The translations under genes and the position numbers were made by a program. A DNA stretch of 64,000 bases, taken from the NCBI RefSeq assembly GCF_000024945.1, contig NC_013520.1, forward strand, positions 296,001 through 360,000. The letters run 5' to 3'. The notes beneath the pieces are model-generated. The model made no database searches, was not told the origin of the DNA, and saw nothing but the letters and a program-made list of their open reading frames with translations. This DNA comes from Veillonella parvula DSM 2008 (GTDB taxonomy: Bacteria; Bacillota; Negativicutes; Veillonellales; Veillonellaceae). This document shows, in pieces, positions 16,449 through 48,228 of the stretch (within the stretch, counting starts at the first letter, position 1; each line of letters begins with the position of its first letter).

Positions 16449-16994
16449 ATGATTGATATTACAAAAATAATTGAAACCAATAAAGAATATGTGAAACAAC
16501 ACCCTGAGCTACCAAAGGCGGGGCTAACAAGCCATCCTACAAAAAAGTTAGGCATCGTAACTTGTATGGATACCCGCTTAGTAGGTATGCTTGAAGAAGC
16601 ACTAGGCTTTAATCGAGGCGAGATAATTGTCATCAAAACTGCAGGCAATAGTGTAACACAACCTATCGATAACATCGTGCAAAGCTTGCTCGTTGCTACC
16701 TATGGTATGGAAATTGAAGATGTGCTAATTATCGGTCATGAAAACTGTGGTATGATTGATTTTTCTGCTACTACATTCATGGAATCTATGAAAGCAAAAG
16801 GTATCAGTGAAGATGCTATTCGCATGATTGAACCGGGCCTTATCGACTGGATGGATCGATTCCATATCTCTGAAGACAATGTAATTTATACAGTTAACTT
16901 CCTACGCCACCATCCACTATTTCCAAAAGGAATGGGTTTCTATGGAGGCATGATGGATCCTGATACAGGCGAATTCCGCTACCTTGAAATTTAG
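16449..16994 (+). CDS. Beta-class carbonic anhydrase
   Basis: Interconverts CO2 and bicarbonate, supplying bicarbonate to carboxylases in this capnophilic-type metabolism. Zinc ligands Cys39 (CMDTR), His97 and Cys100 (HENCG) and the Asp41-Arg43 pair are visible. At 181 residues it belongs to the short beta class. ATG 16449 is chosen because AGGA lies five bases before it; a GTG 12 bases upstream overlaps that site and is unlikely. The first large hairpin repeat begins six bases after its stop and its stem ends in five T, so that repeat may double as its terminator. Confidence 0.92.
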   Translation: MIDITKIIETNKEYVKQHPELPKAGLTSHPTKKLGIVTCMDTRLVGMLEEALGFNRGEIIVIKTAGNSVTQPIDNIVQSLLVATYGMEIEDVLIIGHENCGMIDFSATTFMESMKAKGISEDAIRMIEPGLIDWMDRFHISEDNVIYTVNFLRHHPLFPKGMGFYGGMMDPDTGEFRYLEI

Positions 16995-16999
16995 GCTAA

Positions 17000-17142
17000 G
17001 ATTTGATGGGGCCCAAGTTGATTTGTACATTTAGGTGAAAAAGAACGATAACTAACCTCTACGCTCCAAAGCAAGCTAAGTCGCTAATCGGTTAGTTATC
17101 GTTCTTTTTCTAACTGTACCTATGAATTAGTCCCATCAAATC
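17000..17142. repeat. Structured intergenic repeat, copy 1
   Basis: Outer 11-bp arms GATTTGATGGG / CCCATCAAATC (17000-17010, 17132-17142) enclose a perfect 20-bp stem (17038-17057 with 17090-17109) and a 32-base loop containing ACGCTCCAAAGCAAGC and CTAAGTCGCT. The stem is bounded by A5 and T5, so it can act as a bidirectional terminator. Confidence 0.9.
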
Positions 17143-17201
17143 TGAATGTCCATTAACGAGTTAGCGTAATTTCGCCGCATCAAGAGGGGGAAGAGAAATT
17201 A

Positions 17202-17331
17202 ATGGGCCCCGTTAGATAACTACATTTAGGTAAAAAAGAGTGATGACTAACCTCTACGCTCCAAAGCGAGCTAAGTCGCTAATCGGTTAGTCATCACTCT
17301 TTTTATAACTGTATTTGTGAACTCGTCCCAT
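17202..17331. repeat. Structured intergenic repeat, copy 2
   Basis: Perfect 20-bp stem (17233-17252 with 17285-17304) and a 32-base loop differing from copy 1 at a single base. The stem differs from copy 1 at three positions on each side, and every change is compensated, keeping all pairs. Outer ATGGG / CCCAT ends match the family layout. Confidence 0.9.
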
Positions 17332-17392
17332 CGAGTCTATTCATAAATCAATAAAACAAAATTCACTGTATCAAATGAGTAAGGGACGAAAA

Positions 17393-17485
17393 AGTTATCG
17401 TTCTTTTTCCAACTGTACCTATGAAGTAGTCCCATCAAATCTGAATGTCTATTAACGAGTTAGCGTAATTTCGTCGCATCAAGAG
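17393..17485. repeat. Structured intergenic repeat, copy 3 (right half only)
   Basis: A 93-bp direct repeat of 17094-17186 with about four mismatches, starting inside the stem. The left half and loop are missing, so it is a truncated copy. Confidence 0.88.
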
Positions 17486-17531
17486 TGAACAAAGAAAGGG
17501 AACGGCTTAGCCATTCCCTTTTCTTGCTCTC

Positions 17532-17759
17532 TATATAGCCAACCTATTATTTTCGCATTTAAGGTTGATGGTAGGACTATATGGGACTATTACATAAGTA
17601 CAGCCATAAAAATCACAGAACCTAGTAAAGAGCGACTTAGCTCGCTTTGGAGCGATGAGCTAGGTTCTGTGATTTTTAACTAGGGTCTCACTAATGTATT
17701 CGGGCCCCATATAGTCCTATTATGGTAAACCTTAAGCGTAATAATAGGTTGACTATATA
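17532..17759. repeat. Structured intergenic repeat, copy 4 (inverted, long arms)
   Basis: A 19-bp perfect stem (17607-17625 with 17660-17678) of unrelated sequence carries the same loop core in reverse orientation: 24 bases identical to copy 2. Outer arms of about 50 bp (17532-17585 with 17706-17759, including TAGGACTATATGGG) are also nearly complementary, making a palindrome of about 228 bp. Confidence 0.9.
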
Positions 17760-31590: not shown

Positions 31591-31595
31591 AGCAA

Positions 31596-31648
31596 GAAAG
31601 CCCGTATCACATGTAGAATTCTACATGTGATACGGGCTTTCTTTATTT
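31596..31648. terminator. Large perfect palindromic terminator between PepSY gene 2 and alr
   Basis: A 46-base perfect palindrome centred on AATT (31596-31641; arms contain CCCGTATCACATGTAG), with T-rich sequence on the plus side. It ends 9 bases from the alr stop, so it probably stops transcription from both sides. Confidence 0.9.
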
Positions 31649-46423: not shown

Positions 46424-47890
46424 ATGAAGTTGAATTGGAAATTATTTGCACCGCTTGTAGTAGCTATTCTTGTATGGCTCATCGGTGCTCCTGAAGGTCT
46501 TAGCGCAAATTCTTGGATTTATGTAAGTATTTTTGCAGGCCTTGTGGTGGGGTTGATTTTAGAACCAATGCCACCAGCTTTCATCGGTATCATTGCTGTT
46601 ACCGTGTCTATGTTGTTTAAGGTTGGTCCTGCTCCTGTTGTAGATAAAGCAACTGGTGTAGCAAAGGCGATTACTGATGCACAAGCTATCAGTTGGGGTC
46701 TTAGCGGTTTCTCTAATGCCATCGTGTGGTTGATCTTCGCAGCCTTCATGATTGGTATTGGTTATGAAAACTCTGGTCTTGGTCGCCGTATTGCATTGTT
46801 CCTCGTAGCCAAGCTTGGAAAGTCCTCTTTAGGCCTTGGGTATGCCATTGCTATTACTGATCTTGTGTTGGCTCCATTTATTCCAAGTAACGCGGCCCGT
46901 TCTGGTGGTACGATTTATCCAATCGTATCCAGTATTTGTCCGATGTTCGATTCTTATCCAGATAAGAATCCTCGTAAAATTGGTTCCTATTTGAACTGGG
47001 TAGCATTGGCTACTACGTGTGTATCTAGTTCTATTTTCTTGACTGGTGCGGCGCCAAATCCATTGGCTCTTGAATTGTCTGCTAAGTCGGGTATTGTAGC
47101 TGCCAACTGGGGCACATGGTTCCTAGCATTCTTGCCAGTGGGTATTATACTATTTATCATCACACCATTATTGACGTATGTATTCTGCAAACCAGAGGTA
47201 AAAGGTTCCCCTGAAATTGCAGCATGGGCAAGGGATGAATATAAGAAATTAGGCTCCATGACACGCAGTGAAATTTTCATGGCCTTGATTTCCGTGTTGG
47301 CTCTTGTGTTGTGGATTGGTGCTTCTACATTCAAAGTAAACCCTACAACAACAGCTTTGATCGTTATTATCTTGATGATTTTCACTAAGATTATGACATG
47401 GCAAGATTTTCTTGCTAACAAACCAGCATGGAATGTTTTGACTTGGTTTGCCACACTTGTGCCTATGGCTTCTGGGCTTAAGAATGTAGGATTCTTGGAA
47501 TGGCTTGCTAAATCTGCAGGTGGTTCTTTAGTTTCTTTAGATCCAACAATGGCTGTTCTAGGCTTGTTATTAGCATTTTGCTTACTACGTTACTTCTTTG
47601 CTTCTGGTACCGCTTATGTAACAGCTATGGTAGGTTTGTTTGCTACTCTAATTCTTCAGATTCCTAGTGTTGATCCAGCTCAAGTTATGTTGATTCTTTT
47701 AGTACCAATGGGTATTATGGGTATCCTTACACCATATGGTACTGGTCACAGTCCAATCTGGTTTGCTAGTGGCTATAACAAAGGTCCTGAATTCTGGAAA
47801 TTAGGTGCTATCTTTGGGATTATCTACCTCGCGATATTTATCGTGGTGGGGATTCCATGGATTCAGTTCGTAATGCCACTTTTAGGATAA
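46424..47890 (+). CDS. DASS-family (CitT/SdcS-like) dicarboxylate/anion transporter
   Basis: Polytopic carrier of 488 residues with about 12 helices of the divalent anion:sodium symporter family. Signatures include FSNAIVWLIFAAFMIGIGY, PSNAARSGGTIYPI (the SNT-like substrate site) and LTPYGTGHSPIWF near the C-terminus. Likely substrates are malate, succinate, tartrate or citrate; specificity not decidable. ATG 46424 follows AAGGAG by eight bases. With the nearby dcuA broken, it may be the main C4-dicarboxylate carrier in this stretch. Confidence 0.87.
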   Translation: MKLNWKLFAPLVVAILVWLIGAPEGLSANSWIYVSIFAGLVVGLILEPMPPAFIGIIAVTVSMLFKVGPAPVVDKATGVAKAITDAQAISWGLSGFSNAIVWLIFAAFMIGIGYENSGLGRRIALFLVAKLGKSSLGLGYAIAITDLVLAPFIPSNAARSGGTIYPIVSSICPMFDSYPDKNPRKIGSYLNWVALATTCVSSSIFLTGAAPNPLALELSAKSGIVAANWGTWFLAFLPVGIILFIITPLLTYVFCKPEVKGSPEIAAWARDEYKKLGSMTRSEIFMALISVLALVLWIGASTFKVNPTTTALIVIILMIFTKIMTWQDFLANKPAWNVLTWFATLVPMASGLKNVGFLEWLAKSAGGSLVSLDPTMAVLGLLLAFCLLRYFFASGTAYVTAMVGLFATLILQIPSVDPAQVMLILLVPMGIMGILTPYGTGHSPIWFASGYNKGPEFWKLGAIFGIIYLAIFIVVGIPWIQFVMPLLG

Positions 47891-47899
47891 TTAAATAGT

Positions 47900-47970
47900 G
47901 CCCCTCGTAGCATTCTGCTCGCTCTCCATCCCTTGCAAGTCGAGCTTACAGAACGCTACGAGGGGCTTTC
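47900..47970 (+). terminator. Long hairpin after the DASS transporter
   Basis: An 18-bp stem (47900-47917 with 47949-47966, one G-T pair), inner GCTCG/CGAGC, then TTT. It acts as the terminator and is part of the repeat below. Confidence 0.65.
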
Positions 47971-48132
47971 CTTATATCCGAAAATGGCATAACTCACTTC
48001 GAGGGGCAAGTCGCTTAGTAGATACAATGCGGCTTCTTTTTATCCTGAAATGGCAATACTCACTTCAGAAAAAGTCGAGTTTAAAGAACGCTACGAGGGG
48101 CTTCCTTTATATCCGAAAATGGCAAAACTCGA
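47937..48132. repeat. Three imperfect copies of a 60-70 bp intergenic repeat
   Basis: Units start AAGTCG (47937, 48008, 48072) and share ACGCTACGAGGGGCTT (first and third) and TATCC-GAAAATGGCA followed by ACTC. Copies 1 and 3 are close; the middle one is diverged (GATACAATGCGGCTTC). A 90-codon frame crosses them but has no ribosome site, so I treat it as non-coding. Confidence 0.75.
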
Positions 48133-48228
48133 CAGAACTCGACAAATCTAAGAAAATAAATATAATATAATATTGATATGATAGTAAATATCTTTTTTTG
48201 AGTTTTCTGATGGAGGTAGTTTATTATT

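Follow-up and report, generated by a model that had tools for sequence, protein, structure and literature searches.

Interspersed palindromes of Veillonella with a conserved loop and site-specific stems, possibly rewritten by fold-back template switching

Compensatory change is usually regarded as the strongest sign of a functional RNA that a sequence can give. The intergenic region between a carbonic anhydrase gene and bioD in Veillonella parvula DSM 2008 (genome G000) holds several hairpins whose stems change in a paired manner around a constant loop, and it raises the question of whether this pairing reflects selection on an RNA or the copying of DNA. We analyzed a window of 64 kb, corresponding to positions 296001-360000 of the 2.13-Mb single-contig chromosome, in which a preliminary description had reported three full copies and one half copy of a repeat in this region. 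Direct sequence check recovered all of them (Table 1). As described, three stem positions, each compensated on the opposite arm, distinguish copy 1 from copy 2, and the inverted copy 4, with another stem, matches copy 2 at 24 of 24 loop bases (genome positions 313631-313654). The elements are larger than had been described, ~200 nt or more when complete: folded with their flanks, copies 1 and 4 form imperfect palindromes of ~200-230 nt. A hairpin scan of the whole 64-kb window yielded eight hairpins, namely copies 1, 2 and 4, a further member at 47.9 kb and four that are devoid of the motif. In the same scan, a perfect 24-bp hairpin with a 2-nt loop (AAGAAAGCCCGTATCACATGTAGA) appeared at 31594-31643, which lacks the family motif and is terminator-like. 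The names carbonic anhydrase, AAA_26 protein (read as bioD), DnaA and symporter are based on Pfam; other genes were named from sequence reading.

Table 1. Members of the palindrome family and related features in the 64-kb window (positions counted from the first base of the window).
Feature	Position	Strand	Description
Copy 1, box to box	16999..17143	+	outer flanks AGATTTGATGGG/CCCATCAAATCT pair; GGGGCCC/TAGTCCC box; inner stem; loop
Copy 1, inner hairpin	17037..17110	+	perfect inverted arms 17037-17057/17090-17110, 21 bp; loop (gap) 32 nt
Copy 1, loop core, CTCCAAAGCAAGCTAAGTCG	17064..17083	+	loop-pattern search
Carbonic anhydrase gene 3' end, mirrored in copy 1 outer right arm (borderline)	16958..16984	+	22/28 aligned positions; 14/1000 shuffles as high
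Mirror image of carbonic anhydrase gene end	17159..17185	-	mirror test; coordinates read from sequence
Copy 2	17204..17338	+	perfect inverted arms 17233-17252/17285-17304, 20 bp, gap 32 nt; loop core 17259-17278
Copy 3	17393..17497	+	orphan right half of copy 1 repeated, 105 nt, 91%; same strand, 3' of copy 1; start within stem
Copy 4	17532..17759	-	inverted palindrome of ~228 nt, opposite orientation; perfect inverted arms 17607-17625/17660-17678, 19 bp, gap 34 nt; loop core 17633-17652
Further member	47865..48064	+	stem 47900-47917/47949-47966; loop core 47924-47942 (CTCCATCCCTTGCAAGTCG); stem unlike others
Mirrors of sodium:sulfate symporter family gene end, in the 47.9-kb member	48040-48064 (best match); ~47972-47998 (by eye)		
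Right-half fragment of the 47.9-kb member	48066..48135	+	start near AAAAAGTCG, by eye

From tip to base, an element consists of an apical hairpin, a CTCC/AGTCG internal-loop motif, a perfect ~20-bp stem, an internal loop, a box and an outer stem, the flanks of which pair too. The GGGGCCC/TAGTCCC box is confined to some copies: a GGGCCC-type box had been ascribed to all of them, but GGGGCCC/TAGTCCCAT is present in some only, and the general feature is CTCC...AGTCG. The apical part inside the motif also varies as a hairpin, in the form of TAG-YRAN-CTA, TACG-GCG-CGTA or long GC-rich inserts. One such GC-rich insert, CACCCACCCCGCTATGCGGGGCC, separates the two halves of the core in the EtfA-site loop of G011 (locus L176, model hit G011:C3:14145), and a similar insert at G000:1898510 has no flanking arms.

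What the copies have in common is the loop alone, the stems being site-specific and near-perfectly Watson-Crick paired. Within orthologue groups, CTCC/AGTCG shows 1 change in 468 aligned bases compared to 188 in 2469 in the inner stems, a conservation that is overstated because most copies were found through loop patterns. The loop alleles AAAGCGAGC, ATAGTGACC and ATAGTAAAC exchange as blocks at sites with unchanged stems in species other than G003. The loop of G003 reads TTCAR-TACGCTTAACGC…GCTACGTAA-ATTCA, and the pattern ACGCTTAACGC-N3-30-GCTACGTAA is found at six places in this genome and at none in the other 13 Veillonella genomes. At five of the six, the lineage-specific loop sits in long, mutually unrelated stems, which indicates that the loop changed in concert within the G003 lineage; at the sixth, the same apical part is still flanked by CTCCA…AAGTCG. 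The AGCGA/TCGCT pairing within the loop, once proposed to allow a pseudoknot, is not conserved, as AGTGA or AGTAA alleles occur beside an unchanged GTCG.

The family extends across the genus. Searching with the loop only returned 55 places in 10 of the 14 Veillonella genomes (none with the reversed control pattern), and a degenerate loop pattern gave 72 places in 12 genomes (5 with the control). Minimum-energy folding of the 64 of these 72 places that lie in extracted loci, performed with no shuffled control, enclosed the loop by 10 to 114 pairs in every case; the weakly paired folds include hybrids, and at least G000:2043268 is a chance match. A search of Veillonella genomes with a covariance model had been proposed in the preliminary description, and a model of 17 copies gave hits in 11 of the 14 genomes, with 12 matches in G000. 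Among 47 other genomes of the order, the same model scored only in G047, and weakly; this candidate member outside the genus was rejected, its loop lacking the motif. Sites common to several species include those at carbonic anhydrase/bioD, EtfA-like, leuD/leuB, arsenate-reductase- or glutaredoxin-like and metF genes, among others. In G012, copies lie at 131219, 147463, 311317, 311577, 2082489, 2116069, 2120184, 2138138 and 2145872. Veillonella caviae and the MAG L274 have no such palindrome 3' of the carbonic anhydrase gene, and the junction is unalignable. In V. atypica (L271), an apparent right-half fragment lies 3' of the carbonic anhydrase hairpin, its start, judged by eye, falling inside the extended loop.

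The stems of the 17 copies covary strongly, with a score of 0.778 compared to 0.189 for shuffled alignments. Paired cells make up 94.4% of the stem, each stem column has 2-5 pair types, and 126 cells, counted over the structure as a whole, are two-sided (36.9 in shuffles) against three that are one-sided. Of the five measures, the one that counts further pair types was not unusual (43 vs 38.9; 67 of 500 shuffles as high). If one strand were selected as RNA, G·U should exceed A·C among imperfect pairs, because a G·U on one strand is an A·C on the other. For 15 hand-picked orthologue groups (hybrids and orphans excluded), in which one-sided changes, two-sided changes and change rates are not independent events because ancestry is shared, ordered comparisons with each sequence pair entered in both directions gave 100 G·U, 102 A·C and 171 transversions as one-sided changes at Watson-Crick pairs (19 G·U vs 17 A·C in the inner stem only); 15 two-sided changes are reachable through G·U and 14 are not, on a single-change background of 124:97; the inner 30 nt carry 46 two-sided vs 68 one-sided changes, the outer arms 8 vs 305; and the change rates are 7.6% in inner stems, 12.7% in outer arms and 19.1% in the sequence beyond.

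Counts of mismatches complete these comparisons. Overall there are 135 G·U vs 147 A·C, a count that includes the chance match G000:2043268. Isolated mismatches lean to G·U (27:15, p=0.09) in a count that omits G000:2043268, G008:1097869, G047 and the model hits in L016, L030, L031 and L118-L122. Among RNAalifold pairs, the differences numbered 337 for Watson-Crick/mismatch, 146 for Watson-Crick/G·U and 43 for two-sided Watson-Crick; this count was set aside because the choice of pairs counts G·U as paired. On these comparisons, the pairing does not appear to be preserved as a one-strand RNA, and the symmetry of G·U and A·C points to DNA-level copying, or else to a structure that both strands require or to a DNA cruciform. 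Thus the fixed loop and covarying stems of the preliminary description stood up in the covariation test of 17 copies, but its reading of the covariation as selection on a folded RNA did not agree with the one-sided and two-sided counts. It had also held that uncompensated stems would count against it, and such stems do occur, in the hybrid copies considered below.

A second set of observations concerns the origin of the right arms. In 7 of the 11 copies tested (9 different sites), the final bases of the upstream gene reappear in mirror image on the right side, with at most 10 of 1000 shuffles as high taken as the cut-off. Four copies did not reach it: carbonic anhydrase copy 1 is borderline, and the others had 148, 515 and 843 shuffles as high; the test failed at the glutaredoxin-like, LDALVK and glmM-like sites. 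In V. atypica, 25 of 29 mirror positions match at the carbonic anhydrase site. Moreover, the arms of some copies extend into coding sequence.

Searching the extracted loci, which hold 93 stem-bearing copies, for extra partial copies revealed 11 right arms and a single left arm, with any fragment up to 75 nt from a core hidden by the mask. One right arm and the left arm together make a complete copy and three right arms belong to hybrids, leaving seven orphan right halves and no left one, all on the same strand as the parent and downstream of it. Judged by eye, the start falls within the loop core in four orphans and at the right edge of the core in two more; the seventh, copy 3, starts in the stem. 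The orphans at L119 and L120 may represent a single site shared by two species. In the hybrids, the left arm of one copy is joined to the right arm of another across the loop core. Hybrids with poorly paired stems are G012:311317, G010:36316, whose left arm comes from copy 2, G010:389554 and G011:469299. In the window, degenerate repeats at 48010-48140, 3' of the symporter gene, partly resemble right-half fragments of the 47.9-kb hairpin.

We tentatively favor an account, drawn from the sequences, in which fold-back template switching rewrites these DNA palindromes, turning around at a conserved loop made up of CTCC, a small hairpin and AGTCG. A replication (or repair) strand would copy the left arm and the loop, then fold back on the loop hairpin and copy its own left arm, producing a new complementary right arm from whatever DNA lies to the left, the gene end included, before switching back to the template. 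Repeated fold-back would keep the inner arms complementary while stems diverge between sites and species, and faulty switching would give right-half fragments and loop-joined hybrids. In this way, fold-back could account for stems that vary yet stay paired, for the absence of a G·U signature, for right arms that mirror gene ends, and for both the hybrids and the right-half debris. As expected of template switching, the arms are complementary and the two-sided changes are independent of G·U. Template switching in replication is described as creating and repairing perfect hairpins, and stable loops have been proposed to promote intrastrand switching (PMC8794818); two-step compensations in rRNA, in the available text of the same study, affect G-U pairs in 78.5% of cases. 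Further papers treat the template-switch repair of quasipalindromes (PMC7202029, PMC8604942), as far as their available parts go.

Fold-back alone leaves three features unexplained: the conservation of the loop, the persistence of sites, and the clustering within less than 400 kb of the origin. The loop may be retained as the best turn-around site, and so be self-maintaining, or as a protein recognition site, perhaps with an origin role. That several species keep the motif hairpin at shared sites speaks against fold-back and suggests selection on the hairpin and loop; at some of these sites (bioD, arsenate-reductase-like), the inner stem has been replaced while the motif hairpin stays. The slower change of inner stems would likewise be expected under selection on the stem, and a 3'-UTR function is compatible with the polarity seen relative to the upstream gene. 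In addition, the hybrids remain unrepaired, which also counts against fold-back. An extension of fold-back, possible in our view if doubtful, is a self-regenerating element whose ~20-nt loop makes the replication machinery rewrite adjacent host DNA into a palindromic arm. Only the loop would then be inherited, and within a lineage its copies would be replaced together, as at five of the six places in G003. Should the loop direct fold-back copying, this would be a novel means by which a short sequence persists.

A structured RNA, mostly in 3' UTRs, that serves as a bidirectional terminator or protein-binding hairpin and is selected in the transcripts of both strands seems a somewhat unlikely alternative on the comparisons made here. 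It would explain the strong covariation of the helix in the 17 copies and the position of the core, which at 41 of 64 places follows a co-directional ORF, with 29-104 nt between its stop codon and the core according to a simple ORF caller, and a requirement on both strands would mask a G·U bias. About half of the copies, by eye, have an A-run/T-run at the stem ends. The lack of a G·U preference in the one-sided (100:102), overall (135:147) and two-sided (15:14) counts weighs against it, as do the many copies without a T-run, the arms that run into coding sequence, and the oriC copies, which lie between rpmH and dnaA and not 3' of a gene end. The bidirectional terminator suggested earlier suits, by eye, about half of the copies, those with a T-run at the stem end. 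A simple terminator scan, which allows loops of 3-8 only, detected none of these stems.

The oriC copies and the distribution of the motif bear on another alternative, in which a protein reads the loop motif of a cruciform or hairpin DNA site with an origin-proximal role, and the arms need only pair. The pattern CTCC-N5-35-AGTCG has 99 matches in G000, one of which is nested in another, and of the 98 scored for arms, 14 have a stem (>=33) and 84 do not (<=20). All 14 stem-bearing matches lie within 397 kb of dnaA (start at position 248), where the maximum possible distance is 1066 kb, compared to 21 of the 84 stemless ones, whose median is 609 kb. With neighbouring copies merged to 11 sites, the origin proximity gave a Mann-Whitney p=2e-5; other genomes lend this clustering no independent support, because the origin-proximal sites are largely the same in each species. 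Beside dnaA itself, 12 of the 14 Veillonella genomes have 1-3 hairpins of this build, three of these genomes with variant or different loops. Ten carry the motif, G002 among them with a long apical form as well; G013 has a long apical form that escaped the motif filter, and G003 has a different loop. No hairpin of this build was found beside dnaA in G007, and the contig of G001 stops ~340 nt before its dnaA, placing the origin outside the sequence examined.

Such a protein site also fits the near-invariant loop and the lineage-specific loop at the six G003 places, and would mark the origin-proximal part of the Veillonella chromosome. The mirrored gene ends and the right-half debris are left unexplained by it and its protein partner is hypothetical, so that, as read from these sequences, we regard it as unlikely. 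The consensus of the centromere site parS is TGTTTCACGTGAAACA. In G000, parS sites are located at 2119049-2121050 (four exact, plus a near match), and a centromere role of the hairpins is unlikely because the exact sites stand 11-13 kb from dnaA; the hairpins were likewise rejected as a substitute for parS, since canonical sites are already present elsewhere in this genome.

A non-autonomous mobile element, MITE-like or REP/RAYT-like, is very improbable: the several dispersed copies per genome, the tandem copies in one intergenic region and the CTATTATTA...TAATAATAG outer ends of the bioD copies would suit it, but the arms vary by site, many sites are common to several species, copies 1 and 4 have inverted flanks (AGATTTG/CAAATCT, GGACTAT/ATAGTCC) in place of a direct target-site duplication, and the Y1 transposase family (Y1_Tnp, PF01797) has no match in G000 despite its 12 model hits, which disfavors the MITE-like origin raised in the preliminary description. 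Across the genus, matches to this family range from none (G000, G001) to 14 per genome, with 12 of the 14 genomes positive and many matches being contig-end fragments (G007). No match was obtained for the loop pattern in viral contigs, for copy 4 in plasmids or for the whole region in phages, nor for the carbonic anhydrase protein in viral contigs. Two further candidates were discarded: a DNA uptake sequence, as only six places, too few, match GCTCCAAAGCGAGC with at most one mismatch, and a lack of SbcCD that would let long palindromes survive, as all 14 genomes have the SbcD family. Fold-back, an RNA or terminator acting on two strands, a cruciform read by a protein and a mobile element may overlap as explanations.

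REP/BIME and other interspersed palindromic repeats are intergenic, occur in several copies per genome and are conserved in stem sequence. The Veillonella palindromes are likewise intergenic and multi-copy, but they keep the loop while their stems are local; they also differ from REP/RAYT systems in that G000 lacks a Y1 (HUH) transposase and the palindrome sequence is not conserved between copies. About half of the copies resemble intrinsic terminators in having a stem with an A-run/T-run 3' of a gene; the family differs from these in its ~32-nt motif loop, its arms of up to ~100 nt, and its members without a T-run and in oriC. As a multi-locus bacterial family with strong covariation but no G·U signature, the palindromes offer a test case for distinguishing DNA copying from RNA selection, and they counsel caution in RNA discovery based on covariation.

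Among published structures, the template-switch quasipalindromes of PMC8794818 are similar in that copying of the opposite arm makes or repairs perfect stems and gives two-sided changes without G·U intermediates. The hairpins in the available text of that study lie in RNA genes, rRNA above all, whereas the Veillonella family combines one loop with many loci and gene-mirroring arms. The PBC-28-3 motif, presented in PMC8632094 as a conserved-loop RNA motif upstream of ahpC-like genes and a putative translational regulator, differs from the Veillonella palindromes, which stand beside many unrelated genes, mostly downstream, and in the origin region. The same source lists two structured-nucleic-acid candidates of similar host range, the ilvD motif, exclusive to Veillonella, and the potE motif, found in Veillonella only besides environmental samples. 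Each is placed there upstream of one gene, unlike the multi-site palindromes, and for the ilvD motif the authors report seeing no palindromic or short repetitive sequence (PMC8632094). We regard the family as a new variant of interspersed quasipalindromes, with template-switch-repaired hairpins and a conserved-loop RNA motif before another gene as its nearest published counterparts in the parts of these sources at hand.

The earlier statement that no described family fits agrees with our searches of Rfam, the literature, and phage, plasmid and viral collections, none of which provided one. In the accessible parts of the literature on Veillonella repeats, noncoding RNA, oriC and conserved-loop hairpins, no family was recognised, an earlier listing in the selfish/repeat class of PMC8632094 being possible. 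Rfam gave no match at gathering score in the whole window, and matches at permissive E-values were judged to be chance. In 12 loci, the sole Rfam matches were T-box leaders near leu genes, at L086:13195-13396 and L101:14584-14787.
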